From NCBI GenBank assembly GCA_028622995.1, contig JAJQJQ010000006.1, forward strand, positions 868,001-932,000: a DNA stretch of 64,000 nucleotides, read 5' to 3'. The stretch is from Panagrolaimus kolymaensis. Its lineage: Eukaryota > Nematoda > Chromadorea > Rhabditida > Panagrolaimidae. Made by a program: the position numbers and the translations under genes. Under the pieces are notes generated by a model. It was not told the origin of the DNA, did not search any database, and saw nothing but the letters and a program-made list of their open reading frames with translations. Shown piece after piece: positions 153 through 52,658 of the stretch; positions within the stretch are counted from its first letter, which is position 1; every line of letters starts with the position of its first letter.

Positions 153-3100
153 ATGCTCATCGATTATTTGCAACTTAAAAAAGATGTTCGATTTTTCACA
201 TCTTTGGCCGGACTCATGAACAAATGTTCCGTACTCAATTTAGAAATGTTTGAACGCCAAATAAAAGCAGAAGGATTGGGAATGGGCGCAGAACTTGCAG
301 CAGGAGATCATCAAAATCTCAATGATGCAGAATTTACTTGTTCCCTATTTCGATTCCTTCAACTTACTTGCGAAGGGCATAATTTAGATTTTCAAAATTA
401 TCTTCGAACTCAACCTGGCCACACTACCTCTGTGAATCTCATAAATTCCACTGTGGATTATTTATTGAGATTACAAGAAAGTGTAATGGATTTTTATTGG
501 CATTATAGTTCTAAAGAAGTTATCGATGAGGGCGGAAAAGAATATTTTTTACGTGCCATTCAAGTTTGCAGTCAAGTTTTTAATACTTTGACTGAAAGTA
601 TTCAAGTAAGTTTTTTTCTTGATTGATAATAATTTTTTAAAGAAAAATAAACTGATTTGATGCAAAAAAAAATTAATTTTTAAAACTGAGATTGGGTTTA
701 GATAATTTTTTTACTTTAACGCTATCGGTTTCAAAAAGCTTACAAAAACTGATCAAATTTTTTCAAAATCGATCCAAAAAATTGAGAATAGCATTTCCCT
801 AGTATCTTTAACGAATGGAATATAAAAAGTTTAAACTGAAGTTCAATAACATTGTTTTTTTAAAAGGTTTATTAATTTTAAATATGTTTCGAATTAATTT
901 AATTTTTTCCAAATAAAATCTAAAATTTAACTGTCTCTATTAGCTTCAAGGAATTTGAGAGATTTGCTTTAAATTTTTATAACTTTGCTTTAAACTGGGG
1001 CCTGTCCCTTTGGCTTTTTTTTTTCAAAACTAAAACTGTTTCAAGCTTGCGTATCATTTTTGCTACAAATTCACTGTTCCATTCAAGCAAAACGAAAAAC
1101 GTTCATTAAAAAATTTTGTTTTGCTAAAATTAGCTTTACTTTTATTTTATTTTTTAAATTGTTAAAAGACCTTTTCCGAAGACATATTTTTGTAATTTTA
1201 AAACTGTTGAGAAAGTGAGCATACATATTTTGTTACAAGTAAACTGAGATCTTTAATTTAAAGACAAAGAGATCATGATTTTGTTTTTAGAAATTAAAAT
1301 TTTTTTATTATAAAATGTATCCATTTGTTTCTTCGGCGCTATTTTTTGTATTTGCATTACTTTTTATTTAACTGTGTTTTGAAGAGAAGAATTTTTTTGT
1401 TTAATTAAACTGCGATAATCTTCTTTTTTAGAGATTATTTTAACTGAACAACATCTTCAAAGAAGAATAATTTTCTTTGATAAACTATTATTTTCACATA
1501 TCAAAAATAAAAATTATTTAAAAACTGAAAACTTTTATTATTCTGGAGCATTTAAAACCAAATTAATTACAAAGCTGTAATTAAAAATAAAAGAGTGTCT
1601 TTTTTTAAACTGGGTTAAAGAAGCTACGATGATTAATAATGTTTTTATGAAAAACTGCCTTTCATTCAATTTTCTTAATAATAAAAAATTAACCGTTATT
1701 AATTTCAAAAGAATTAATAAATAATTTTTTAAACTGACTTACTTGAATAAATTTGGATGAGAGGTTTTTTTTATATAAACTGAGTGTTCTGTTCTAAAAA
1801 TAAGCTGTTCCCAAAATAAAAATAAAACTTTCACGTTTTTAAACTAAAATTAATTAGATTAAAAATTTATGTAACCCACTTTTTTGAAGGTTTATTTATT
1901 TTCTAAAGCTATGAATTAAATTATTCGAGGTGAAAGCTAAAAATAAACTGTCATAACTTAGAGATTTTTGAGAAGTAGCGTATTTTTTTTAAATGGAACC
2001 ATTCCGACTTTTTTATTATTAAAAACTGTCATGGGTTATGCAGTTTTATTTTAAGTACACTGGAGTTCAATATGTTCACAAAACGTTCATTAATAATTTT
2101 ATACTTTTAACTGGAAAACGTCCCTTTTCGGAGACATATTCTGTGATTTTAAAACTGTACGCCAATCACATAGTTTGTAACAAGTAAACTTGATTCTTTA
2201 AATAAAAGAAGAAAAAGGACTGTTGTTTTATTGTTTTAAACTGTTGAAATAGCTACTCATTGAAATTTTTTCTGATTTCATCCTTTTTATTTAACTGTTT
2301 TTTAAAGTAAAAATTTATTATATTTAAAAATGCTGAAATCTTTTTCTTTATCGATTATCGAAAGAAATAAGAAATTTTTAAACTGGACCCGAAAAAATTT
2401 TCTGACGGTTTTAAATTTTTTTTAAAAAACTTTGAACTAATTTCCTTCAAAGTAAAGCTAAAAATAAACTGCACGAAGTGAGTTTCGAATTTATTTTTTA
2501 TAAATTTCGTTACAAACTGTGGCCGCTGCAAATTCTTTTTTATTTTAATGTTTAAAATGTACTGCTCGGCATTTTTGTATTTTAAAGAAACTGTTTTCAG
2601 TTGTGGAGAACGGAAAAAAGTTTATAAAAAAAATTACTACTTAAAATAAGCTTTTTTAAATTTATTTTTATATAACTGTGGTACGATCTTTTTCGAGTTT
2701 TAAAACTGTGTTTTGTCATAAACATAATTGATCCTTTTAGTTTTAAGAGCAAAAAAAGATTTTGCTTTAAAATATTAAATTATTTTTAAACTGCCAAAAT
2801 TGGCTTTTCATTTCATTATTTTATTTAACTGTTCGAAGACGCACAGGTATTTTGGTTAGAAATGAACAATGCTTCTTTTTAAGCACTTTATCCTTTAAAA
2901 TAATTAATGCTTTTGCCCGATATCAATTTTGAATAAGGCTTATTTTATTTTTTTGATAAACTGTGTTCTTCTGAAAATAGTTTATAAAAAATAAATAAAA
3001 GTTAATTTTCCACTTTTATTTTCAAAAAAAATTTTAAAAATTAAAAACTGAAATAGAGTAAGTATTTTTTTGGTAATATTTTAAAACTGATTGGTACTTA

Positions 3101-6100
3101 TACTTTCCATGTTAGGAGGATTTTTACTTCGATAAATTGGAAGATTTTTAACTTTTAAAGTTAAATCCACAAAAAAATAAACTGCATCAAAAAAAGTTCA
3201 AAAATATTTTAAAACTGAAGTACAATAATTTTTATAACCACAAAATTTTTTTTAGGGTCCATGCGTCGGAAATCAAATGACTTTAGCTAATTCACGTTTA
3301 TGGGATGCCATCAATGGTTTCTTCTTTTTATTTGCGCATATGATGGAAAAATTATATAAAAATTCTACCCAACTTGAATTACTTCGAGAATTTTTAAATT
3401 TACAAAAAGATATGATCGTTTTAATGCTTTCAATGTTGGAAGGAAATGTTCTTAATGGACCCATTGGAAAACAAATGGTTGATGCCCTTGTTGAATCACA
3501 ACAATGCGTGGAAATGATATTAAAATTTTCTGATATGTTTTTAAAACTTAAAGATTTAACCACTTCGCAAGCTTTCCAAGATTTTGATACGAATAAAGAT
3601 GGATGGATTTCACCCAAAGAATTTCAACGAGCAATGGAAGCACAAAAAATGTATTCGGTTGAAGAAATAACATATTTAATGATGTGCACCGATGTAAATA
3701 ATGATGGAAAAGTGGATTATATGGAATTCACTGAACGATTTCATAATCCCGCAAGAGATATTGGATTTAATTTAGCTATACTTTTAACTAATTTGAAGGA
3801 ACATATAACAAATGATCCAAGGCTAGAAAAAATTATTGAAAAAGCTTCCTCGCTTCTTGAATATTTTGATCCATTCCTCGGAAGAATAGAAATTATGGGT
3901 TCATCAAAAAGAGTAGAAAAAATATATTTTGAAATTCAAGAATCTTGGCTTGAACAATGGAGCAAACAACAAATTCGTGATTCTAAAAATGCTTTCCTTT
4001 TTAATGTCCTTCAAGATGATGGCGGAGATCAAGGCAAACTAGAAGCATTCATAAATTTTTGTGAAGATACTATTTTTGAAATGCAACACGCAGCTGAAAT
4101 TAGTGCGGGCGAAGGTACCGATACTAAAATGGAACGAGCTCTTCGACAAAGGGATTATTTCCTTCAACAAACTTCCGCTGGTGAACAATTATCCAAAACT
4201 TTTGCAGCTTCATATAATTATGGTTTATCTGCGGCAAATGCATTGAAACCAGAAAATATTCAAAAAACTATGAAAAAAGTTTTAACTAAATTTCGAACTT
4301 TAACTTGGGCTCAATTGATTGTTGAATCATTCAAGGGAATATATGGTTTAGGAAAAAATATTTTCTTTGCAATTTATTTTATTATTTTAACTTTACTTCG
4401 ATTTGGCTTTTATCTTATGAATCCCGAAGATGAAGATGCAATCAATAAACAACGAGCATTAGAAATGCCTAATCAAATTAAAGACCAACCAAAAGTATAT
4501 CATGAAATTCCGGGAATGAGTAAAGTAACAAAAGATTTCGATGCTTTTGGAGTGCATATTCACACAGATGAAGCATTCCCTGAACCAGAATTAACTGTGC
4601 CGGATGCTCCTCCAGATGTAATGAAAAATGGTAATTTACTTAATGAAAGAGGATCGGTTACACAAGAAACTTTCCTTCTTCGACCACCTTCACAATCTCC
4701 AGGGGTTACACCTGCCGCAGCCGCCACCGGAGCCGCTCCACCTCCATCTCCAGCACCATCAGTCGGAGGAGCAGCATCATATAAATCTCCATCAGTTTAC
4801 GATGCTCAATCAGTAACTTCACAACAATTTATTCCAGCTGTAATTGAACCAGATAATGATCCAAATGTATTTTATGAACCTAAAATAGCTGAAATGTCTG
4901 CAGCTCGATCTAAAGGAAGTATCATGAATGTATTGGCAAGGAATTTTAAAACCTTCGAAAAAACTACCCTTTATCTTGCATTCTTTATTAACGTAATTTT
5001 ACTCTTCCATCGAGTCGACCTCCAACATGTTAACCATCCCGATCCAGATCCAAGTGGAAATGGTGATGATGATGATGAAGAAAGAGATATCGAAAATATT
5101 TATATTTCCGGTATGCAAATTCCATATTTAGCTTATGAAATTAGTGGTTGGATGCTTTCACAAACCCTTTATTGGTTGAGTGTATTCCATGCAGTATCAT
5201 CATTTGCATTATTAATAAGTTTTTATCAACTTAAAATTCCACTCATTACTTTTAAACGTGAAAAAGAAGTAGCTCGAAAACTTATGTTTGATGGATGTTG
5301 GATAACTGAAGATGAAAATGAAGAACGTGGAGTTTTAGATACTCTATTTTGGTATTTGGATCGAATCGTAATTTCATCCAAATCATTTCCAATGAAATAT
5401 TGGGATAAATTTGTTCGTCGCAAAACTAAACAAAAGTATAAGGATCAAGTGGATGAAGAAACTTTGGATTCTTTACTTGGAGCTGAACGTTCACCCGGTG
5501 ATACATCCTTTGATTATCGTTACACGTGTTGGTTATGGTTGGGAGTAATATTAACTAATGGACAATTCCTTTATCGAGTGGGATATCTCCTTTGTTCAGC
5601 ATTTGGTGTATTTTCTTCACCATTCTTTTATGCTTTCCATCTCATCGATGTGGTTCTTTCATTTCCCATGTTAAAAGCCATTTTACAATCCGTCACTCAT
5701 AATTTACAACAACTTATTTTAACTATCATGATGACTTTGGTGGTTGTATATCTTTACACAGTGGTGGCATTTAATTTCTTCCGTAAATTTTATATTCAAG
5801 AAGGTGAAGATGGTGAAGAACCTGATAGGAAATGTCATAATATGCTTACTGTAAGTTGTTAGTTAGTTTGATGAGAAAAATAATAAATAAAGTTTTATAT
5901 TAGCGACAAAAAAAGGGATTTTATTTCCAAAAAAATAAAGAAAGAGACTTACATAAAAACATTTTTTCAGTGCTTCATTTACCACTTTTATGCTGGTGTC
6001 CGAGCTGGTGGTGGAATAGGTGATGAACTTGAAAGCCCTTATGGAGATGAACTTGAATATGCTCGAATGTTATATGATATTTCATTCTTCTTCTTTGTTA

Positions 6101-13778: not shown

Positions 13779-14568
13779 TTTTGTGTTTTGTATTTGTGTG
13801 TTTTAATATGTAATATTTAATAATAAATAATATAAAAAAAATTTATCTTGTGTTATGATTTTTTTTGGAAAGATTTTTATCGAATACTCAACGCTTCAAC
13901 ATCAAATGATGCATTCACTCTTCTTTAGTTTTCTCGCTTATTACTTTTCCCCCACATTTTCCTTTGATCTTTTTTTGATATCATCAAACTAGCCAAGTTT
14001 TACCATTTTCGATTTTTTTGTTTATAATTTTTTAAGATTTTGTTGCTTGATGTCTGTCGATATGGCCCTGATGTCTGTTGATATGGCCCTGATGTCTACA
14101 GTTTTAAGAGAAACTTCTTTCATAGTTTATATTTTGCGGGATCAAAGACTTTGAGAAAAAATTTAACGCAACATTTTAAAAAATATTATGAGTTTTAAAA
14201 TTTTTGAATGTTGTTGTTTGTAAATATGTTGCTTTGTTTTTACACTTCAAAATATAGTGTAATAAGTGCAAAAAAAAATTGGCTACAGTTTTTTTTCCAT
14301 TAAAAATGGATGAAAAAATAATATATGGAGAACGTCGACTAACAGTTTCAATGCAAACGAAAATTTTCCAACGCTCAGTTTTTTTTCCTTTTTTATTTAA
14401 TTGTATTACTCAGTTTAATAACCTTGTAAAACAAATATTTTATTTCATGTCAAAATCCAAAGGGTTTTGTTTTGTTAAAGACATTTAATAAAAAAATGAT
14501 TATTACAAATTTACGAAAAAGGAATGCAGTTTAAAAAAGCCAAGTCTTTCTTTAAATGATTGAATTCA
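13779..14568. other. Convergent intergenic region
   Basis: Holds the msp 3' UTR and the downstream flank of the lectin gene. It contains a short 21-base tandem repeat near 14049 and a few CAGTTT motifs (14110-14400). No gene was recognised. Confidence 0.5.
14049..14097. repeat. Short tandem repeat, 21-base unit
   Basis: Two adjacent 21-base copies beginning GATGTCTGT and ending ATATGGCCCT (14049-14069 and 14070-14090, one C/T difference) are followed by a partial third copy (GATGTCT). The GC content is higher than the surroundings. Confidence 0.85.
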
Positions 14569-17400
14569 TCATAATTTTGGTGCAGTTCGAAAATTTAATG
14601 TCCATCCAGAGAATGTTTTTTCTCGATCGGTATAAAATACAAGGCTTACAATACTTTGCTTGGAATCAAATGTAAGCGGTAATGAGCCATTGCCAGTCAA
14701 ATTGCCTGATAACCTAAAAAAATTGTTTTTAAATATAAAAACCTTTCAAAAACTATTTCAGTTTTAATTTCTTACATTGCCATAGTTTGAGAAACATCTG
14801 TTGCATTATCGCCATCAATAATTCTTAAGTAATCCGATGAAGCTTGAGTCACGAAATCTTTAATTTCAACTAAAACTATTTTAGTTGTGGGAACAACAAT
14901 TTTATAAAATTGAATAAGATAATTTGTATAATTGTTTGGATAATTTGGAGATGAAATGATTCCCATAGATGTATTGAAATATGTTACAGGATTGGTGGTT
15001 CTAAAAACTATTATAAATTGAACCGTTTATTTCTTGTCAAAAAACACGGAAGCTGCAGTTTAAAAAAAATATTTCTGACAAAATTATGGCAATGCTAAAA
15101 GAGAAACTTCGCACAGTTACGAAAATTTTAGCGTTAAATAATATGAATAACTTAAATTTCAGTTTCCTTCGTAGAAAAAAGTGATCAGTTTAAACTTTTA
15201 AAAAAAGTAAATAGAAAATTATAATTCGGTAAATATTTTATTCTTGACCTAATAATGAAGAACTCAGTTTTAATTTAAATTGGAAGTAAAAATAAATAAA
15301 ACAAACAGTTATAAAATTTTTTATCTGTTTAGAGTTATTCGATATAAATTTCAGTTAAAGAAAAAATACACAAATTTTTAAAGACTTGGAGTCTTCGTCA
15401 GATTGATTGCGTCCACAATTTAAAAAAATTTTTCTTTCATTGAAAAAATTAATATCGATCTTAAAAAAACACTTTGGAGTTATTAAAATTTAATTTCAAA
15501 ACATAAGAGAAATTTAAAATTCAGTTTTCTTAAATTTTTAGCGTCGCAAGAATTGACAATTGATTACAGTTTAAACCTTTTTAAAGAAAATGGAAATTAA
15601 ATTCGATAAATATTTTTCTTTTTTTTTCAACATATTTTTTTATCAAAGGCAGTTTTAAAAAAATTAATGGCTAATAAAAAAATAAAAAAAGAACTAAGCC
15701 AGTTTAAAAAATTTTTTTTTATATTAAAAAAAATAATTGTATTAATTACTTACCCAGCAACAAAATTAAATAACCATCCACTTCTAACTAGACTATAATC
15801 AGTGTGGAATCTCAAAGTCATGTAACGTTGGGTTGTTTCATAATAAGATCCAATTGGAACTTTGGTGCCTCCAAGCCTAAAAATGGTTAAAATTAACCGA
15901 CATTTGTACCTTTTTTAACGCAGTTTTAAAAATATGAAGAAAAAAATTTTTGTTTCATTATAGCCACTGTCAGCAAATCTTTAATTCAGTTTAATAAATA
16001 TAAATACTAAAAAAGGCTTAAAGCTTTAGAAACTTAATCTTCGCAACATTCACACAGTTTTTTTAATTTCTTTTTTCTTTTGAAGCAGTTTCAATTAAAG
16101 GAATTTTTCATTCTAAACATAACCCGATTTCTTCAGTTTATTATTAAATTCAACACGATGATTCCCAGCATCGACAAAATCAAAAAAATTAATTGCAGTT
16201 TTTTCCACTTCCCCCAAACAAAAAGTTTTCCCTATAAAAAATTTCCTTCAAATGTGACAGTTTAAATATCAAACAAAATCAGGGAAAAAAATGTCGTGCC
16301 GCAGTTTTACATTAAAAAATTGGAAAAACTTGCAATGTTACAGTTTCTCTTTGAATGATACTAAAGAAATATCAACGAAATTGGACATATCACAGTTTTT
16401 TTAAATCCTTGGTATTTTACCGAATGCTCACATTTTACACAGTTTAAATTATAATAAAAATTTATTTCCTTTTAGTTACCTCTTTACCCAAAAAAATATT
16501 TGTACCAACTTTTATACACGTCCGCTCAGTTTTAGCATCTCTCTAATTTATATCACAGTTTTCAAAACCCCTTCCTTACTTTTGTAATGAATAAGCATTA
16601 TCATCCGGGCCATCAAAAATGTCAACATAATCAAAAAAGTTATATTCTCCTTCGGTTGCAAAATCAAGAACCGTTAAATTCACAATATATCCATCGGGAA
16701 CAGAAATATGATAATAACAATCAAGATTATTATCATAATTATATGGATAATTGGGACTACTTAAATTTCCTTTCATTCCTTGAAAAATAGTACTTTCACA
16801 ACTTGCTGAATGCTGTTTACAAATGAAAGGTTGAGAATATTTACAACTCAATGATTTATAACCCGATGATGAATTAATTGAGGATGAAGAAGAAGTTTTC
16901 CATGCAAAACATTCCTTTGAATTAGAGGGTTCTTTAGGAAGCCATTTAGTTAAATTATATCGATAATCATTATCCAACCATTTAAATGAATCATAACTTA
17001 TTATTGATGGATCTCGATATAATCCCAACCAAATAGGATAAAGAGGAGAATAATTTAGTGCAAAAGCTATCATTAAATCATATTCATTTTGAGATAAAAT
17101 TGAAATCAATGTTCCACCAGTAACATTGTTACAGTAATCCTTTGCAGAATTCCATGGTAAATAAACATTTGGAACGATATAACATGAACTTGTGAGACTT
17201 TTATATTCCCATCCATTTGGACATGGAACTACCGCGGCGTCATTGGAAAATGAAGATGAAGATGATTGGGATTGGAGGAGATGAAGAAGTTTAAGAGATT
17301 CTTCTTGTCGAATATCATCATCATCGCCTGCTAATACGAAAATAGAAAAACCCAAGGAAAAAATAACTAATTTCAGAAAAAAATTATGTAATTTTAACAT
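14569..17400 (-). CDS. Secreted C-type lectin with two CUB domains
   Basis: Four exons on the minus strand: 16580-17400, 15754-15876, 14776-15000 and 14569-14713, giving 437 residues. A signal peptide (MLKLHNFFLKLVIFSLGFSIF) is followed by an acidic/serine-rich linker. A C-type lectin-like domain follows (about residues 58-195), from CPNGWEYKSLTSSCY through WNSAKDYC, WLGLYRD, WLPKEPSN and CFAWK to FICK. A first CUB domain runs from CESTIFQGMKGNLSSPNYP into exon 2, and a second CUB-like domain (GIISSPNYPNNYTNYL) spans exons 3-4 and ends WTLNFRTAPKL. The EPS in place of the EPN triad leaves sugar binding uncertain. CTLD-CUB proteins are a large secreted family in nematodes, often intestinal and immune-linked. 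Both large introns (753 and 703 bases) carry CAGTTT arrays, reading AAACTG on the transcribed strand. Confidence 0.9.
15001..15753 (-). repeat. AAACTG-motif array in a lectin-gene intron
   Basis: Intron 2 of the lectin gene. On + the motif reads CAGTTT or CAGTTA, at about 15056, 15115, 15162, 15188, 15254, 15307, 15353, 15415, 15521, 15566, 15650 and 15699, so it is AAACTG in the transcript. Spacing is about 30-100 bases. The reverse orientation is almost absent. Confidence 0.8.
15877..16579 (-). repeat. AAACTG-motif array in a lectin-gene intron
   Basis: Intron 1 of the lectin gene. CAGTTT on + occurs near 15921, 15987, 16054, 16086, 16134, 16196, 16258, 16302, 16340, 16392, 16440, 16527 and 16555, with spacing of 28-87 bases. 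Several copies are preceded on + by a G/C-containing unique stretch, such as gtcgtgcCG before the copy near 16302. Confidence 0.85.
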
Positions 17401-21915: not shown

Positions 21916-22500
21916 TCGAGTTTATGGTGCTGAACACTTTACCATACTGTCACAATTATTAATTACTAAAAAATTTAAACAAGCTATAACAGTTAATACA
22001 AAGAAACTTTTTAAAAACTAATCTAAAATAATGTGAAACTAGAGTAAACAATATAATTGGTCGTCAGTTTTTTAATCTCCGTAATAGAACCGCTTAATGC
22101 GCTTAATCTCGTAATTTGTTGCTTCAGTTATTATTGATCACAACTAAAAAAAACTTAAAATTGGTAATAAAATCCCAAACGTTATACAACAACAGTTTAT
22201 GTAAAAAGTTTATAAAGTTTGAGTGCCAAACAGCGCTAAATTCAATTCAGTTTTTACTTTTCTAAATCCAACAAAAAAAGCTCGGATGGCTGTAGAAAAA
22301 TTATAATATTTTGATGTTGCAAAAAAATCAGACTCGATTTATTTCCCCACTCACCAGTTTTAAAAAGCAATAGCTATAAATCTCCAATCCATCAAAAACC
22401 ACAAATAGCAGTTTTTGACCTTCTCGAATCGATAAAATTAGTAAGCAACAAAATTGGTAGTTAAACAACAACACAACAAAAAAGTTTTAAACAATTCCTT
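21916..22500 (-). repeat. CAGTTT-motif block downstream of the small membrane protein gene
   Basis: CAGTTT/CAGTTA on + near 21989, 22065, 22124, 22194, 22247, 22357 and 22410, in A/T-rich DNA without a recognisable exon. Orientation matches the two flanking minus-strand genes. Read together with 17401-17838, it forms a roughly 1-kb block that was split by the transposon. Confidence 0.7.
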
Positions 22501-26843: not shown

Positions 26844-27050
26844 TTAAAGGACCCTGTTCATTTGATCTTTTTTTCAAACTCGCGTTTGATTATTCCCTCA
26901 TGCCGCAATATTGCAAAGCCCGTAAAGTACCGTAATGTACAGTAATTTTACGGTCAAATTACTGTACTTTACGGACTCTGCAATATTGCGGCATGAGGGA
27001 ATAATCAAACGCGAGTTTGAAAAAAAGATCAAATGAACAGGGTCCTTTAA
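26844..27050. mobile_element. Palindromic foldback MITE flanked by TTAA
   Basis: A 207-base near-perfect inverted repeat. The left end reads TTAAAGGACCCTGTTCATTT and the right end is its complement, ending AACAGGGTCCTTTAA. The arms stay complementary through CGCGTTTGATTATTCCCTCA and GCCGCAATATTGCA and meet near 26945 with only a few mismatches and a short loop. Both ends coincide with TTAA, the usual target site of piggyBac-like elements and of the PALTTAA palindromic repeats known in C. elegans. It has no coding capacity and would be mobilised in trans. Confidence 0.9.
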
Positions 27051-27099
27051 CGTTTTGTGAACTTTTTTTTTATTTTCTGTTTTTTCTCGAATGAACAGT

Positions 27100-29410
27100 T
27101 TTTTTTAATGATTCTTTTTGGATTTTTATTTTCCTATTTAGTGTTTGTCAGTTTATAAAAGAGAGAAAGGTAAAAGAAATTTAAGTATTTATTTTGCTTT
27201 GTTGTTGTTTATTTTTTTTCTTATTGAGAATAAGAAAATATTAAAGAATGGATGACTCAGTTTTTTTTTGCCATTTTCTAGAGATTTTAGACAGTTAATT
27301 ATAATTTAGTGATGCTACAGATGCGATTACAGTTTTTTTTCCTCTCTCGCCGATTAGCGAAGAGTTATTTTTGTTTGTGATGCGCCACGTTTTCTAAGCG
27401 CAGTTTTTAACCAAAGTTTTTTGGATTTTAATATTTAAACAGTCAAAAAAACATTGAGTAAATCTCTTCCAACATTTTTGAAATATGACAAACAGTTTAA
27501 TAAATCTTTAAATGTTTTTTCACGAAATTATGTTTAAGAATACAGTTTCCTAAAATAAAAAATGTGTCCGTTTTCAATGTTTTCTTTTAGTTTCATTTGC
27601 CTTCGGAGACAAGCCGGCACAGTTTTAAACCATTTTTTGTGTGAATAATAAAATTGAACTTTGTTAATTTTATTTCATCCGTATTTAACTTCAACAGTTA
27701 ATACTAAATTACATATGACATCGAACAACTTTCATGATAAAAAGAAGTTACCGTTTTATTTTTGCTTTTACTTTTTTGGTTATTTATCCTTCATTTTGAA
27801 TATCTGACAGTTTACAATTTTTTTAAAGCTGAAAATAAAATTTAGTGTTGACGCTATGATTCATCCAGGGGCAGTTATAATTTTAAATTGTTAACAAACA
27901 TTGTTTTTTGTATGTAAATTAGATAATTTCAAAGTTCAGTTTTTTTTGCTACATAAATATTTTTTTTGCCTTTGAACTAGGGTTGTCGAATTTCCCGGGA
28001 AATGGAAAAATGGGGAAATTTCCCGGGAATTTTCCCGCTACAAACCTTCACAAAGTCTTACAAAGTTTAACAAATAACAGTTTTGAATTGATTTTGTTTA
28101 TAATCAAAAAAGTTCAGTATTTTTCCAAATTTAAAAGCATGGTTAGATTTGGAACATTTTTTTCAAAAATCAGTTTTAATAATATTCCAAAAATGTGTGA
28201 TAAAAATTATAATTTATCTTCCAATGAAGTTTTAAAAAATTATTAATTTTAAACCATTTATTTTAATAGTATTATTTTTGTTTTTGTTTTTCATATATAA
28301 AAACCAAATGGCAGCACACTTTGAGAATAAGAAGAAAAAAATACAATATAAAAGTTTTTTAAATGAAGAAAAACAATAAAAATTAATTAATGGAAAAAAT
28401 TTTTTTTGCTTCCTCGGCATAATTAAAAGAAAGAAGAAAAAAACAATAACAAAAAAAATAATAAGGTACAGCACTTTTGGTTGCAATTTAATTTTAAAAA
28501 ATAAAGAAAAATAAAGAGAGAGAGAGAAATAAAATAAACGCTGAGTTATACCCGATCAACACGTATTTAATTATAGTTTTTTTTTGTTTAGAAAAAAGTT
28601 AGAAAAAAAAGAAGGATTTTTTTTTTGCAAATTATTCTTTATATTTGTCAGTTTTGGAAAAAAACAGAGGAGCAAAAGCTTATGTTTTGGATTTTAAGCT
28701 TTTTAATTTTTGGGGAAGAGAGTATGGATGATGGCAAAGATGGTGAGAAAGGTTTTTGGAAAAAAATCAAGATATGAAAATCGCGCGCAGTTTATATTTT
28801 TATTACCAAAAAAACAATGGCATTAAAGCCGGAAGTGAATATTTTTTCCAGTTTAAAAATTGTAATTCTGTAAACTACGCATTCGGAAATTTTAAAAACT
28901 TTTAAAATGATTTACAGTTTAAAAATGAAAACTATGATCCGTCCAGAAAACACATATGCAGTTTTTATAACAGATAATAACCTTATCTTTTAAAGGAATT
29001 ATAAATTTAAAAAGCCTATTTAAAACCATTGAACAGTTTTAAATAAGTAAAAGTAAGGAGGAACCCAAGTCAGATGAAACAAATTAATGGCGTCAAAAAA
29101 TATTTTTGAAACAATAAAGAAAACACGAAAATGAAAAAACACTGATTGCTTCTTATTTTACAGTTTAATGAAGAAAGAAAAATTTAATGTTCCCGACTGC
29201 ACACAAAGAATCAGTTTTATACAAAAAATAATTCTTATTTTTAAAAAGGAATTATTAATTTGGAACAACGTTGATAAAAAAAATACGCTTCCTTAAAGTT
29301 TGTTTTAAGCAAAGAAAAATATTTGTTCAATCTTATTTTTTAGAATACAGTTTTTAGATTAATTATTTGTTCTCAAAATTTCCATCGTTCGTCTATCGTT
29401 CCAGTTTTAT
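27100..29410 (-). repeat. CAGTTT-motif array downstream of rap-2
   Basis: About 25-30 CAGTTT/CAGTTA copies on +, for example near 27112, 27150, 27258, 27330, 27402, 27493, 27544, 27620, 27808, 27937, 28078, 28169, 28650, 28850, 28915, 29033, 29160, 29213 and 29402. The same orientation is found in the rap-2 introns upstream. No exon of rap-2 or another gene was recognised here. Either the rap-2 transcription unit extends farther than its stop codon suggests, or a noncoding unit on the minus strand occupies the block. G/C-richer unique stretches precede many copies, such as gccttcggagacaagccggC before the one near 27620. Confidence 0.75.
27978..28050. mobile_element. Possible remnant of a hAT-like terminus
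   Basis: TAGGGTTGTCGAATTTCCCG starts a G/C-rich block with two TTTCCCGGGAA palindromes, ending near TTTCCCGCTACAAACC. The TAGGG start and the TGTCGAA step recall hAT terminal repeats. No matching opposite end or target duplication was found, so it may be a solo relic. Confidence 0.35.
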
Positions 29411-29635: not shown

Positions 29636-32600
29636 TCATTGAATTGAGCAACATCCTCCTTGTTGTTTAGCTCGATTATTTTGTACGAAATTAATTTCTC
29701 GTACAATTTCAGCAAATACATTATTCACATTATGAGCGGATTTGGCTGAACATTCTGCAAATGGAGCATGCCAATATTCAGCTAATTGTGAACCTTCTTC
29801 TGTTCTCACTTGTCGATGGGAATTTAAATCACATTTATTTCCAACTAATAAAATTGGGACTTGATCGGTTCCCTAAAAAAAATTTGTTGTTGTGATAATT
29901 ATTTATTTAAAAAAATCGTTTTAACTATGTATATTACTTTTAATTTTAATCTTTCTTTTTTTCAAAATGAAAAGTTCCGTACAGTTTTATTATTATTTGA
30001 GAGTTTTTATTCTCCTCAGTTTTTTATACAAAAAGATTTCCACCGAAGTTTTTTTTCTCGAAAGTTTGAAAAAAAAATTTAATAATTCTAAATTTTTTAA
30101 TTTTGCCCTTTTTTTACCAAACATCCTCGTCACAGTTTTATTTTCTTGATTTCAATTGTTTGGACCAACAGTTTTTTTTATATATTCTTTTTAAATAATT
30201 TCCCTTGCAATAGCAATTCACGCAGTTTTAAAAATAAAAATAAACTATTCTTAATTTTATAAAAATGCTTTTTTTACGAAAAAAAAATTCGTAACAGTTT
30301 TACTATTCTGCAACATGACTCTTCTAATTTTTTTAAATATATTTTTAATTTTCTTGTAAAATTTGCCTTACAAAACAGTTTAAAAAAATATTTAATATTT
30401 CTAGTTTTTTAAATAAACAATAAATCATTTTTTCGATCTAACAACTCTATTGCAGTTTTATTCTATGATAATGGTCTACCACAGTTCGTTTCAGTTTTAT
30501 TTTTTAATTTTCAGCCATATTCTGTCCGTATATTCAGTTTTAAAAAAATTAATAATTTTTGGATTTTTTTAAAGCATTCAATTTCTTTAACATTACTTTA
30601 AACTTCTCCAGTTTGTCTCAATAAATTTAACTGACTCAGTTTTTATTAAATATTAATTTTTTTTTGTTTATCTAAAACTTGTTTCTAACAATTTAAACAA
30701 CAAATAAAAAATCCATTATTTTTTTAATATCTTTTTTGGTCAAAACCACTCAACAGTTTTATTATTAAGGAAATGAAAACCTTCTATTAGTTATTAATAT
30801 ATTATTAAAAAAAATTTCCAGACAAATTTTGAATCTTACAGTTTAAAAAAATTAATAATGCTTAAACTTTATAACTTTATATAATGGATATTTTTCAAAC
30901 CAAAAAGCCCGTATGCAGTTTTATTTTTTGTTCCGAAACGTCCTCCACAGTTTTTTTAAAAATATATTCTTTAAAAATTCCCATCAAAGAATACTTTTAG
31001 AATCAACCCTTCGCAGTTTGTCAAAAACCCTGTAAAAAATTACCACAAATTTTTTTCTTTGCTTTATTTAAAAAAAATAACAGTTAAACTTTTTGTGAAA
31101 CTATATTCATTTTTTTTTGTGTCAGAAAACATTTTCTTAGTTACTGCCTGTCTTTAAAATTTCTAACATTTTTAAACTATATATTCTTTTATTTTTTTAA
31201 GTATCCTTTACTAAAAAATTTCGACAGTTTTAAAAAAAACAGAATAATTCTTATGTTCCTGTGCTTTATAAAAATAGCTCTTTCATCGAACCAAAAAATT
31301 CTTACGCAGTTCTGTTAAAAAAGGCAACTTCGCGAATCGCGACTTATTATATTTATTCCCTCTAATCAAAAAAACAGAAACAAGGTAATTCAGTTTTAAA
31401 AATAAATAACAATGATTCTGAAATTTATAAAATTGTTTTTTTAACCGTAGAATTCGTAACAATTTTACTTTCACGGAAACAAATTCTTGCACAGTTTTTT
31501 TTTTAATATATTCATTAAAAAATTTCATAAAAAAAATACTTTGTGCAGTTAATAATTTTTTAAATAAATTTTTTTTGAGCTAATAAGTAAAAAAACAACT
31601 CCTCAGTTTTGTTCATAAATATTAAAAACCATTTCCGCAGTTTTTTAATATATTCTTTAATAAACTTATAAAATATCCAAAACAGTTTTTAAAAAGATTA
31701 ATTAATAATTTCTAAATTTTTAAAAAGGATTTCTTTTTTTTTTCATGAAAAAACCCAGTTCAACGGTTTTTATTTTGGTTCTTCCTTCCTCGAAGCAGTT
31801 TTATGTATATTCTTTAAAAATATTCCCACCAATCACAAATCAAATCAGTTTTAAATAAATTAACCAAAAGTTCTTAAATTTTATATATAAAAAAATGACT
31901 TTCTTTTTTTCCTATATAAAAGAAACACAGCAGTTTTATTCTAACCCCATCTCTTTTTTCGTGACAGTTTTTAAAAATGTATTTTTTTTTAAAAGTAAAT
32001 TTCTCTGCCAACCATGAACTTTTGCAGTTTAAATAAAATTAATTAAATAAATAAATAAATAATCTTACTTTAACACGAATAATTTGATCCCGCATTGTTT
32101 GAATATCATGAAAAGTTTGTTGATTTGTTATTGAATAAACTACAACAAAACCTTGGCCATTTTTAATATATAAATCCCTCATCGATGCAAATTGTTCGGT
32201 TCCAGCTGTATCAAGGATTTCAAGCATCGATGGAGCTCCGTCAACCTAAAAATTGAATGAACAGTGTTAAATTTGAATTTTATGAAACAAAACAGTTAGA
32301 CACAGAATGAACTGCTGCAGTTTTTAATTTAAAAAAAGAAAGAAGATTAAAGCATTTTTATCTTTGAATGGAAAGATTCAGTTAAAAGGTTTTTTCCAAC
32401 GCTTAAATTTTTTAACAGTTTTATTCAAAAAAAAAAAAACAAAAAAATGAAGAAAAAATTTAGATTCATCGTGAGCTTTCAAAAGATGATTCCAAATTTG
32501 AACAGTTTTTTTATTATTTTAAAGTTGTGGGAGTTTCGTATAGTCAATGCTAGTGACAGTTACACCTACATATAAAAAAAAGTTAGAAGCATCTTCGTTT

Positions 32601-32934
32601 ATGAATCAAATATTTAGTTAAAAAGGTATTTTCAATTACCAATTTTAGAACGCAGTTTTATCCCCAAAAAAAATAAGTTTCAAAGCTATGTAGCTGCTTC
32701 AAAAAGCAGTTTCAACCCAGAAAGCTCAGTTTTTTTAAAACAATAATAAAATTTGCGAGATTTTCTTGTTTCAAAACTTTTTCTCAGTTTAATTATTACC
32801 TCAATTTCCTTTCGATAAAAATCTTCAATAGTTGGGTCATATTTTTCCATAAATTTATTTGATACAAATTGAACCGTGAGTGCAGACTTTCCAACTCCAC
32901 CCGAACCAAGTACGACGACTTTATATTCTCGCAT
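29636..32934 (-). CDS. rap-2: Rap2-type small GTPase
   Basis: Ras-superfamily switch acting at the plasma membrane and endosomes. Three exons on the minus strand, 32800-32934, 32069-32245 and 29636-29872, give 182 residues, a normal Rap length. All five G motifs are present: GSGGVGKSA (G1), effector loop with [14 protein letters not shown] (G2), DTAGTEQF (G3), NKCD (G4) and SAK (G5). Thr in the second Rap-type position and Phe in the effector (IEDFYRK rather than IEDSYRK) point to the Rap2 group. The protein ends QQGGCCSIQ, a CaaX box with an adjacent Cys, fitting prenylation of the CSIQ cysteine and palmitoylation of the upstream one. Introns of 554 and 2,196 bases are both filled with CAGTTT motifs (AAACTG on the transcript). 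Confidence 0.95.
29873..32068 (-). repeat. AAACTG-motif array in the large rap-2 intron
   Basis: About 33 CAGTTT, CAGTTA or CAGTTC copies on + counted by eye, such as 29982, 30018, 30132, 30170, 30222, 30377, 30453, 30535, 30638, 30754, 30839, 30916, 30948, 31224, 31392, 31492, 31638, 31796, 31847, 31931, 31965 and 32024. They often continue CAGTTTTAAA or CAGTTTTATT. Only one AACTG in the opposite orientation was noticed (near 30629). At this base composition a given hexamer with two G/C bases is expected about once in such a length. Confidence 0.88.
32246..32799 (-). repeat. AAACTG-motif array in rap-2 intron 1
   Basis: CAGTTT or CAGTTA on + near 32289, 32318, 32377, 32415, 32501, 32556, 32653, 32706, 32725 and 32784, again antisense to the host, so AAACTG in the pre-mRNA. 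Confidence 0.82.
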
Positions 32935-49239: not shown

Positions 49240-49925
49240 TTAAACTGAATTTTGATGATTCGAAAGAGATCTTCTCCTTTTTTTGTTTATTAACTGACAT
49301 AATTTAAAGCAGCTTCGATTTTACCCAAATAATCTTTTTTTAAAGGATAATATTTTTTTGATGTTTGTTTCTTTTCCTATTTTTCACCTTTTGTGTTTTG
49401 GTTGTAAGTATAATATTTTATTTTTCGCGTGTTATTTGCATTTTTTTGTTGCCAACAAATTTCCCAATTCATTTCTTGCTTTCTAATTTTTGATATTCTA
49501 TTCCTTTATTTAAAACAAAAACTGAAATTCAAGGTTCTTTTTACTGTGAATTTAGTGGCATTTTTTAAATTCTTTATTTATTAACTGCCATGTTCTTCAA
49601 ATTCAAACTTCGTGAATACTAATATTTTTCATTTCTGTCTCCTAATAAAAAAAAGATTCGTAAAAAACTGTAAATCATTAATCTTAGTTTTTGGTTTTTA
49701 TGTTACAAATTTTTTCTTCGACCTTTTCGTATGTTTTTGCCGCGCCGCTGCCTATCGTGTAAATTTTTATGCTTTCGTGTTTCATCATCAAAAAAAATTA
49801 GCGATCAAAATTCTTTCACTTTTTTTTTCTCTCACAAAAACAAACATAACATTTAAACTGTTGTAGACGGCCACTTTTTAGAGATCAAGAATCTTTTTCA
49901 CAAAAAAAAAACTGTTCCATCATTT
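49240..49925 (+). repeat. AAACTG motifs upstream of the first three-pass membrane protein gene
   Basis: AAACTG or TAACTG on + near 49243, 49292, 49520, 49582, 49666, 49856 and 49911, in A/T-rich DNA leading to the start codon at 49962. The orientation is that of the downstream gene, suggesting a transcribed outron or 5' UTR intron. Confidence 0.65.
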
Positions 49926-49961: not shown

Positions 49962-52658
49962 ATGGCAAATCCTGCTACAGCTATACCATTAATACCTCTT
50001 TCTTCATCATCCTCATCAAAAGCAGACGATGCTGAAGCTTCCGATGTTTCTCGAACTAGACTTCTTTCAAATTCATCTTCTCGCGGCGTTGGTGGTGGAG
50101 GAGGTGGATTAAAACATATCGATGAAGAAGATGAAGAACAACAATTAGATGAAGAAAAAATTATTGATGAACCTCCACAACATTATGGTTCTATTGCGGA
50201 ACGATTAGAACATTTATTCTTTCATCATGATGAAATTTTTTCATTTTCAAATTGCACTAAATCTAAAATTATTGATTTATCTGTAACTCTCGTATGTTTA
50301 TTGACCCTTGTTTTGGTACTTATTTATTTTGCTTTAATGACTCGTGCACCCGATGAATATAAATTTGATAATGAAATTATTTCTAAAGCTAATTTAATGC
50401 CCAATGATGAATTTACACAGCTCAAGCGACAAGTTATTCGACTTTGTGGAGTAAGTAATGGGTTTTATTTCTTTTTAACTGTAGCAAAAAATTTTCTTTT
50501 ATTTTAAAACTGTACTGGGAAGTTTTTTTTCAAAAATTAGAAATAAAAAAAATTAAAGAATCAAATTTAAAAACTGCGCCATACCATTTAAAGTAAATTT
50601 TAAACTGAATACTTCAAACTTATTTTTTACTAAGCTTAGAAAAATTTTAAGGATTCAAATTTATGCAAAAAGCTAATGACCAAAAGATTTTTAAAATAAA
50701 TCTAAACTGACCTTGATGAATATGTCTGGCTTTTATGCCACCATTTTTTTGTGGCAAATTTTTGATTTAAGAAATTGTAAAAAACTGTTTTCTTTGATTT
50801 TGGAGTTGATTGTAAAACGTTTGCTTTGATATTTTTTTCAGCCAAATTTTTTTATTAACTGAATAGTTTTGAAATGAGCCAAGTAAACTAAAATTTTAAA
50901 AAAAGAAGGCATTTTGATAAACAAATCTTTTAAACTGTTGTTCGAAAATTTTCATCAATATTATTTAAATTGTTTTTCTCGCTGCATCTTTTTAAGCCGC
51001 CATTTCTTTTCAACATCTCAAATTAAACAAATTTATCAAAACTGTATGTAGGCGCTTTTCATTGGCCATATAAAACTAAAGCTTTAAAATTGTTTTTAAC
51101 TGAATGATATTGAATTAATGCTTTTTGTTAGATAAACTGCACTTCCTTGGTACCATAGTTAATCCGCCATTTATTTTTTTTGGCAATCACTGAAACGCGT
51201 TTAAAACTGAATAGTCTTTTTTTGATTTAAACAACTGTAGGATTTTAACCATGAATGTTATTTTAAATAGACACCATATACATAGTTATTAAATTATTAG
51301 AGACAAACCAACAAAACTGACTTTGAAATTTTCTTAATAGCTGCAATTTGCTATTTAGCCTTTAGAAAAAGGCGTCAGCTGTCAAACATTGTTTTGTTAT
51401 TTTAGCGGGCGTTAATATGAAAAAAAGTTTTTAAAAAAACCATTTTTTTAACTTTTTTGAAAGAATGGTTTTAAAAAAAGAAAAAGAAGAAAAAAGATTA
51501 AAGTTCTTCAAAAACGAAACAAAAAAAATATGCATCCATACTTTTTTCCTTGCGTGCTGCTGCTATCTCTGTTTTTGGAAGCAATAAAAAAAAGTAAATA
51601 AAAGAAAAAAATAAGGAACAAAAACAATAGCAATAACAACTACATACTCAAAGCATCTTTGATGCCTTAAAGATTTGGTTGAGAAAATTCGGGAGTGCAA
51701 AAAAGAATGTATGTAGTTTTAAAAATAAAAACTGAAAAATCAAAACTCGAGCAATTTTACGCTAGGAAAAATATTAATCTAAAATTAAACTGAAAAAAAA
51801 CAATGGATGGAAATTGATTCTCTTAAGAATCGAAAATTTTTATAGAGCATTCAAAATCCAAAAAGAGTGACAAAAAAACTGAAAATAATAATAAATCATG
51901 GATCATGAAGAAACGCAGCGTTGTAGACTGTAGCTCGACTAAAATTTGATAAGAAAACGAACCAAAAAAATTTTTAAGATTAAAAAAAACTTGAGCAATA
52001 AAATATTATTCTGCTTTAAAATTTCGAGGTTTTTGTCTCTAAAAAAACCCCAATACTTTTTCGTAACTCAAATCAAAAAACCAAATCCAAACTTTGAATG
52101 TTTGAAAAACTTTTTCCAAAATATCCGGCTTCTGCTCCTTTTTTTAAAAACTCAATTAAAAAGATGGCTGAAAAAATTTCTTACATATAATTTTTTTAGA
52201 CCGTTGAAAATTATAATAATCAAAATCGAGATATCATTTGTTTTGATGAAAAAAATAAAAATTGTACCTCCCTTTCAAAATTATTCAATTCCAAATTATA
52301 TCAATGTCAAATAGAAACCGATCGAAGAACTCAACATTATGATAAAATCTTTCCAAATTATGAACGAAATATTTTTATTGCTCGAATGACTACCGTAATT
52401 TTGGCATTTATTATTTTTGGTTTATGTATTATTGTATTTGTAACTCATGGAAAAACGGATATTTTTCGGCGACCATCCAAACGAATTCATAATCTTCCTA
52501 GAAATAAACTCGAACGTGGATGCTTTGTATTTATTTTTGCTGCATTCGCAATTTGTACAATAATTATTTTTTTGGGTTTATCTCTTTATATTCCAAGAGA
52601 ATGTTATAGTATGTCATTTGAAAAGTGTAAAAATCAATATCCGGGATATCATGGCTAA
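49962..52658 (+). CDS. Three-pass membrane protein of unknown function (copy A)
   Basis: Not recognised. Two exons, 49962-50450 and 52200-52658, give 315 residues. The start is the ATG of MANPATAIPL; the frame upstream has no other ATG. The N-terminus is Ser-, Gly- and acid-rich and cytosolic-looking, with PPQHYGSIAERLEHLFF before the first membrane segment (IIDLSVTLVCLLTLVLVLIY). A conserved-looking loop follows, with KANLMPNDEFTQLKRQVIRLC ending exactly at the exon junction. The extracellular/luminal Cys-containing part (DIICFDEKNKNCTSLSK) is followed by segments TTVILAFIIFGLCIIVFV and CFVFIFAAFAICTIIIFLGL, and the protein ends in a Cys pair and a HG terminus. The downstream neighbour at 53947 has the same topology, the same junction position and a similar pre-junction sequence, so they look like tandem paralogues. 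The 1,749-base intron is an AAACTG array. Confidence 0.82.
50451..52199 (+). repeat. AAACTG-motif array in the intron of copy A
   Basis: AAACTG or TTAACTG on + near 50477, 50508, 50571, 50603, 50705, 50781, 50857, 50934, 51040, 51099, 51133, 51205, 51231, 51315, 51730, 51788 and 51877, spaced about 30-100 bases, dense in the first 900 bases and sparse in the last 300. Many copies are followed by unique G/C-bearing sequence. Confidence 0.85.

Follow-up and report, generated by a model that had tools for sequence, protein, structure and literature searches.

Long introns and gene flanks in the window, the whole stretch of 64,000 nucleotides of Panagrolaimus kolymaensis DNA analysed here, carry dense islands of the oriented word WAACTG followed by a fixed downstream anatomy. 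Judging from the DNA letters, we propose with a probability of roughly 0.6 that every WAACTG serves a single, very short small-RNA gene as its promoter core and start site, and that the islands are pieces of two predicted multi-megabase piRNA-like clusters. The islands of the window and the genes that they accompany are the following:

606..3255, + strand: ryanodine receptor (RyR) intron with an island at 650-3217 (36 AACTG)
3256..5856, + strand: array-free RyR exon, host gene on + (Pfam RR_TM4-6; homeologs on C20 and C23, 97%)
14099..14763, - strand: island of 8 copies in the last lectin intron and the lectin 3' flank
15056..16560, - strand: island of 24 copies in two lectin introns (host exon C-type lectin and CUB)
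21990..22413, - strand: island upstream of a minus-strand ORF of 944 aa, either in an intron or in the 5' region (7 copies)
27096..29406, - strand: rap-2 3' flank with two islands, one of 15 and one of 10 copies
29982..32029, - strand: island of 33 copies in rap-2 intron 2 (exons match Pfam Ras)
32293..32789, - strand: island of 10 copies in rap-2 intron 1
49243..49914, + strand: island that precedes the coding start of copy-A (7 copies)
50477..51319, + strand: island within the intron of the copy-A gene (14 copies)

Within the window, Rfam has no family at gathering score.

The original prediction of about 35 copies of AAACTG or TAACTG on the + strand of the RyR intron holds, with 36 AACTG (29 AAACTG and 7 TAACTG) and 2 CAGTT at 606-3255, as does the claimed order-of-magnitude enrichment, given that 1000 dinucleotide shuffles of this intron yield 3.15 +/- 1.69 copies and at most 11. 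The word is exactly WAACTG (sense:antisense 242:4 for AAACTG and 42:1 for TAACTG), and variants with one mismatch lack a sense excess of this kind, so it is not a decaying consensus. Copies lie in the arrays at a density near one per 70 nt, and their spacing is irregular as described but not free, since distances below 28 nt between successive copies are depleted (15/367, where random placement predicts about 106). The motif is also non-tandem, as had been stated: Tandem Repeats Finder lists no repeat for L024 and, for L023, four short ones of two copies each. Descent of the units from an old repeat, tandem or mobile, could account for a diverged internal duplication of the RyR intron (spacing of about 920-950 nt, 71-81% alike), but such units should not be unrelated outside the motif, as these are, nor should their one-mismatch variants lack the sense excess; we regard such an origin as highly improbable and reject it on the exactness of the word and the absence of a tandem array in L024.

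A strong strand bias is also found in the other introns for which it had been claimed, with host-sense:antisense counts of AACTG of 33:1 and 10:1 in rap-2 introns 2 and 1, 13:0, 11:0, and 1:0 in the lectin introns, and 17:0 in the copy-A intron. Every island in the identified introns of the window matches the strand of its host, as would be expected if WAACTG acted in the sense-strand RNA of long introns, for example as a splicing or RNA-binding protein site, which the original prediction had implied. However, copies do not merely fill introns: they continue beyond the stop codons into the 3' flanks (26:0 for rap-2 and 6:0 for the lectin), lie upstream of the copy-A and other genes, and form an array at C5:2.00-2.018 Mb, where about 17 kb contain no strong coding segment. 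There, the intron of a minus-strand GPCR gene carries 9 copies on + and 0 on -, in antisense orientation, which contradicts the claim that the motif always follows the sense strand of its host; an outer + strand gene may surround this GPCR. The array is moreover restricted to two genomic regions. An intronic RNA element is therefore improbable, and we reject a host-sense element on the antisense GPCR intron and the 3' flanks. The suggested analogy to the periodic A/T clusters (PATCs) of C. elegans, an AT-rich signal in the introns of part of the genome, fails as well, since over 30 kb of islands neither AAAA nor TTTT has an autocorrelation peak at lags of 10, 20, and 30. PATCs share with the islands an AT-rich intronic signal in part of the genome, but the signal described here has no 10-bp period and consists of one exact oriented word with a fixed downstream anatomy, so that we rule them out.

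The genome contains two multi-megabase array regions. A first, loose search pattern failed to separate the motif from its control (1414 forward matches vs 1351 for the control's reverse), but the array pattern gave 1842+1855 matches across the whole assembly vs 154+178 for the reversed pattern, and two narrower patterns gave 51 matches (control 3) and 74 matches (control 1). All 125 narrow-pattern matches (125/125) come from two sets of homeologous contigs, C5/C20/C23 and C3/C18/C42+C40, and from five small contigs. Among the array-pattern matches listed, 6/100 lie on C1 and C2, in agreement with the control rate of about 9%, and 17 of 18 10-kb samples outside C5 have no island by a loose island rule, while the remaining one (C1:3.008 Mb) has 5 copies in a row on one strand. 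By extrapolation, the total comes to about 47,000 copies, or 16,000 per haplotype. A strand-biased motif present in only part of the genome is thus real as proposed, though the subset that carries it is defined by position in the two megabase regions and not by intron length or host strand. Neighbours 10-250 kb apart are on the same strand in 50/81 cases (permutation p 0.11), which does not indicate an orientation shared by a region beyond gene scale. On C3, at 6.78-7.51 Mb, 94/94 among the matches listed are on +.

Confinement to two multi-megabase regions would also suit a DNA site for a chromosome-domain protein, such as a pairing-centre or chromatin-domain motif, without an RNA per copy. 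In C. elegans, each pairing centre has short zinc-finger motifs, repeated in one region of a chromosome. Yet this reading, which we consider unlikely but the least so among the alternatives, leaves unexplained the density near one copy per 70 nt, the boundary and G peak at +24, and a one-sided, fast-changing stretch of 19 nt.

These last features belong to a unit of constant order: an AT-rich upstream part, then WAACTG, a stretch of about 20 nt that is richer in G+C, a peak of G at +23/+24, and an A-rich tract at +25..+36. Across 390 copies, GC is 0.305 at +5..+24 and 0.213 at +25..+36 with a background of 0.247, and G stands at +24 in 111/390 copies (50 copies at the median position). The second cluster, on C3, replicates this pattern with G at +24 in 44%, T or G at +23 in 77%, and GG at +23 in 15/89 of its copies (n=89). 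The G signal of L023 is less strong and extends across +20..+24. A hairpin (miRNA-like) RNA is ruled out, since 120 units show no stable fold (mean z -0.01; 9% below -2). PMC6436959 describes the pause signature of piRNA loci as high Tm from the TSS to +19 followed by low Tm from +20 to +40; the same high-then-low course is present in the 390 copies as a GC profile (not Tm).

Comparison of two introns across three homeologs shows which parts of the unit are held. AACTG is kept in 279/315 cases vs 1811/3488 for other 5-mers, although in 1/6 intron-pair comparisons the motif is no better kept than the rest (0.891 vs 0.905). The most diverged part is the 19 nt directly after AACTG, with an identity of 0.791 at +5..+23 vs 0.874 and 0.883, a difference of -0.081 (95% -0.110 to -0.053) that is alike for A/T and G/C bases; 14 control words gave 0.86-0.95 in the same comparison, and identity rises again at +13..+16. 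Fourfold sites of the RyR exon differ between homeologs at 10/55, 11/55, and 5/55, so the body may simply be changing neutrally, with constraint acting on the sequence around it. For Caenorhabditis piRNAs, bodies are described in PMC9683057 as changing rapidly while promoters and terminators are kept.

As a small-RNA gene, each unit would have RNA polymerase II start at or beside the A-C of AACTG and then pause and end at the junction of the G+C-rich stretch and the A-rich tract, releasing a precursor that is capped and about 25-30 nt long. The predicted mature RNA would be 21-22 nt long with its 5' U at +3 (5'-UG) and its 3' end at +23/+24, would be carried by some Argonaute, and would probably serve against foreign or mobile sequences; we propose that the body is free to change because the number and diversity of the RNAs count rather than single sequences. 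Several points speak against the small-RNA reading: PIWI is reported absent from clade IV (PMC4323106), the Ruby core is no commoner than its control, and the U1/U2 flanks looked at contain no AACTG; to these come the possible neutrality of the body, the one intron pair whose motif is no better kept, the rise of identity at +13..+16, and the weaker G signal of L023. The start consensus YRNT agrees with A-A-C-T in R, N, and T, with an A at the Y position. The worm has 143 Piwi-domain (PF02171) matches, which may belong to any Argonaute clade. The same kind of system could alternatively use WAACTG as an upstream element, in which case the K-G of +23/+24 would act as a YR-like initiator for polymerase II and the RNA would lie beyond +24. 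The frequencies of T or G at +23 and of G at +24 among the 89 C3 copies agree with such a start, as does the position of the Ruby motif upstream of the start at its loci (PMC6436959). Nevertheless, the stretch past +24 is A-rich and conserved no less than background, the G+C-rich and fast-changing part precedes +24, and the invariant U would be lost, making this arrangement rather unlikely.

More broadly, and tentatively enough that we would sooner bet against it, a lineage without PIWI may have rebuilt a piRNA-scale system or kept it under another Argonaute, with two megabase clusters that contain about 16,000 minimal small-RNA genes in each haplotype and with the start motif WAACTG(N18)KG in the Ruby motif's place, maybe also behind the motif-less 21-22Us of Strongyloides. 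Nematodes outside clade V and the plectids are reported to be without PIWI and motif-driven piRNAs (PMC6436959, PMC4323106). If true, a clustered small-RNA gene architecture can outlive PIWI and the Ruby motif or be reinvented without them, and what replaced piRNAs can be tested directly in a triploid that is free-living, can be cultured, and reproduces by parthenogenesis, and whose three homeologous copies reveal the held and free parts of such a gene. What we describe would be the signature of small-RNA gene clusters in a worm of clade IV, recognised from sequence alone. Titles and abstracts, mainly of non-subscription papers, on intron motifs, Plectus and clade IV piRNA, Panagrolaimus small RNA, 21U clusters, Ruby motif evolution, and Strongyloides 21U contain no mention of such a motif that we found.

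Among known systems, the type I (21U-RNA, Ruby-motif) loci of Caenorhabditis resemble the arrays in that minimal units, thousands in number, occupy introns and intergenic DNA rich in A+T and are gathered in two or three multi-megabase clusters, and in a kept promoter, a free body, and a pause-type signature downstream. Of these traits, the clustering in non-coding DNA is found here in the 125/125 narrow matches, the diverging body with kept promoter in the two introns of three homeologs, and the pause-type order in the GC profile of the 390 copies. In contrast, the word is WAACTG and not CTGTTTCA, it abuts the presumed body whereas the Ruby motif lies upstream, and the worm belongs to clade IV, where PIWI is reported lost. 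The Ruby motif itself is ruled out, as its core CTGTTTCA is no commoner than the reversed control (4 vs 4 in 98 kb, both strands); the shorter TGTTTCA occurs 54 vs 26 times reversed in 98 kb, with 8 sense and 10 antisense copies in islands at no fixed position relative to AACTG. The piRNA loci of Pristionchus and Plectus (P-type, SNAPc-related) lie within genes and have a strong pause signature (PMC6436959); the units described here share both features but are clustered. We reject a SNAPc/snRNA-type promoter in the Plectus style on the finding of AACTG in 0/9 U1/U2 5' flanks of about 125 nt (6/26 U1 and 3/15 U2 matches looked at). For S. ratti, also of clade IV, PMC9203780 describes 21-22U RNAs encoded in two clusters on X, one of 1 Mb and one of 2.7 Mb, with AT-rich sequence upstream and AU-rich sequence downstream; part of them derive from transposons, and no motif was found there. 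A motif is present here and thus sets the two apart, but they agree in clade, in two megabase clusters with AT-rich (AU-rich) flanks, and in the 5' U and 21-22 nt length predicted for the RNAs described here.

The original observation of a strong one-strand motif excess holds for the ryanodine receptor (RyR) intron, where AACTG occurs 36 times against 2 copies of CAGTT and a shuffle mean of 3.15. Across 22.4 kb of islands, AAACTG stands at 242:4 and TAACTG at 42:1, and other single-base variants lack a comparable excess (e.g., GAACTG 5:1 and ACACTG 5:1). Because the excess is confined to these two among single changes, we define the word as WAACTG. In the window, copies on both strands together amount to 1.51 per kb in confident coding segments versus 4.49 in the remainder. 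Successive copies are rarely close to each other, with 15 of 367 distances below 28 nt where random placement gives 106 (minimum 83).

The motif had also been proposed to fill long introns always on the host's sense strand. Islands in the window indeed share the strand of RyR, lectin, rap-2, the copy-A membrane protein, and a 944-aa ORF, but copies continue beyond the stop codons of rap-2 (26:0 across 2.8 kb) and lectin (6:0), and a minus-strand GPCR intron at 2.00 Mb of the window's contig, C5, carries 9 copies on the plus strand and none on the minus strand (7tm_1 match, E 8.5e-12). This plus-strand run extends over approximately 17 kb and then flips strand. The arrays are thus not bound to a host gene. 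EHD-type, B56, and HSP20-like genes are among those in the window that lack arrays, giving the impression that housekeeping genes may be avoided.

The window spans C5:868001-932000 of an assembly that comprises 807 contigs and 265.8 Mb, and P. kolymaensis is described as triploid with 266 Mb in the available part of PMC10374039. Both regions tested (RyR and rap-2) have 3 homeologs each; RyR exon identity is 79% to Panagrolaimus sp. JU765 and Panagrellus redivivus. Among eighteen 10-kb pieces sampled from C1–C4, C10, C20, C30, and C60, 17 hold no island, defined as five or more copies on the same strand separated by no more than 250 nt, and the remaining one, from C1, shows 5 copies in a run. 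Both 10-kb samples of C5 contain large islands. On this contig, islands lie at 0.5, 0.87–0.93, 1.4, and 2.0 Mb, and 4-kb samples at 0.06, 3, 4, 5, 6, 7, and 8 Mb have none. Four samples (C5 at 3.0 and 4.0 Mb and two on C1) contain neither AACTG nor CAGTT in 4–10 kb, which is below chance expectation and possibly reflects satellite or other repeat DNA.

Genome-wide, triples of spaced AAACTG number 1842+1855 versus 154+178 for the reversed pattern, and two narrower patterns give 51 (control 3) and 74 (control 1) matches. Of these 125 matches, 117 fall on C3 (from 6.98 Mb onward), C5 (0.42–2.71 Mb), C18, C20, C23, C40, and C42, with the other 8 on five small contigs. Shared strings together with the RyR and rap-2 exons identify C5, C20, and C23 as homeologs, and shared strings link C3 to C18, C42, and C40; these two homeologous sets therefore imply two clusters per haplotype. 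The clusters are patchy, since a sample at 500–510 kb of C20 lies inside one yet has no island. Extrapolating from five C5 loci (28 triples, 393 island copies), the 3365 excess triples would correspond to about 47,000 copies, or 15,700 per haplotype, if the C5 ratio holds elsewhere.

Other elements in the clusters are as follows.

Non-array elements within the clusters
C5:758313-758479, U1 snRNA match inside the cluster
C20:475757-475923, U1 snRNA match inside the cluster, homeologous
C23:2396328-2396494, U1 snRNA match inside the cluster, homeologous
Window 26844-27050, inverted repeat (93-nt arms of 97% complementarity around a 21-nt spacer)

The inverted repeat, possibly a small mobile element, lies at the distal end of the array in the rap-2 3' flank. 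By eye, a piece reading TTCCCGGGAAA...GACAACCCTAG recurs in the rap-2 3' flank (window ~27970-28040) and in the RyR intron on C20; the homeologs of that intron lack this piece, which may be an inserted element.

Aligning 390 copies on the motif (positions relative to it, with the U of AACUG at +3) revealed a structured unit. GC content is 0.162 at -15..-1, 0.305 at +5..+24, and 0.213 at +25..+36 (background 0.247), and G counts (median 50) drop to 25 at +18 and reach 84, 94, and 111 at +20, +23, and +24, with GG at +23 41 times (median 10). This peak is separately visible in the window and two other sampled stretches, and weaker and spread in a third. It is strongly replicated in the other cluster on C3 (G at +24 in 44%, GG at +23 in 15 of 89), where strings were chosen for a second motif 22–52 nt on, a possible bias in the A-rich part and not at +23/+24. 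Folding of 120 units is no stronger than that of shuffles (mean z -0.01).

In alignments of homeologous RyR and rap-2 introns, AACTG is kept in 279 of 315 instances (pairs counted in both directions) compared to 1811 of 3488 for the 132 other two-G/C 5-mers pooled. This places AACTG third among 133 words, and the two ahead of it have 20 instances apiece; motif per-base identity is 96%. Where both copies keep the motif (141 pairs), identity is 0.791 at +5..+23, 0.874 at +37..+89, and 0.883 at -60..-26; body and surroundings differ for A/T (0.824 versus 0.902) and G/C bases (0.716 versus 0.774), with a bootstrap difference of -0.081 (-0.110 to -0.053) over sites that are not fully independent. 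Fourteen control words show 0.86–0.95 at +5..+23. The body is less identical than the rest in all 6 intron-pair comparisons and the motif more identical in 5. Instead of being accelerated, the body may be neutral and its AT-rich surroundings constrained, given that one RyR exon shows differences at 10/55, 11/55, and 5/55 of its fourfold sites. Within this fast-changing stretch, identity rises again at +13..+16, which would be nucleotides 11–14 of a 21-nt RNA starting at +3. Arrays may grow by local duplication, since the RyR intron contains a diverged internal duplication (window 1144-1426 / 2096-2349, spacing 920–950 nt) and is over 1 kb longer on C5 than in either homeolog.

We favor, at a probability of roughly 0.6, that WAACTG marks predicted start sites of short piRNA-like RNAs beginning at AACTG; the remaining probability is split between a start at a shifted position, a DNA-binding domain element, and an RNA element of introns. 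As far as the accessible text of PMC6436959 describes, a motif in AT-rich DNA at nematode piRNA loci drives a capped precursor of ~28 nt ended by Pol II pausing, with a pausing score in which Tm is high between the start and +19 and low over +20 to +40. Overlaid on the WAACTG unit, this score would place the transcription start at about +1 to +5. A mature RNA of 21–22 nt from the invariant U at +3 would end at +23/+24, coinciding with the G peak and the close of the fast-changing stretch. Piwi-domain matches at 143 places in the assembly, as exon pieces across three haplotypes, are so numerous that they suggest a large Argonaute family; one match lies within a cluster (C23:1691846-1692664).

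None of 9 U1/U2 flanks examined contains AACTG, and the units scored negative in the Ruby-motif test. Caenorhabditis piRNA sequences diverge fast and promoter and terminator features stay, according to the portion of PMC9683057 available. In Strongyloides ratti, likewise of clade IV, 21–22Us come from megabase clusters (1 and 2.7 Mb), with sequence that is AT-rich upstream and AU-rich downstream; the sections of PMC9203780 at hand report no motif found there. The WAACTG units thus work like clustered piRNA genes and are candidates for such genes.
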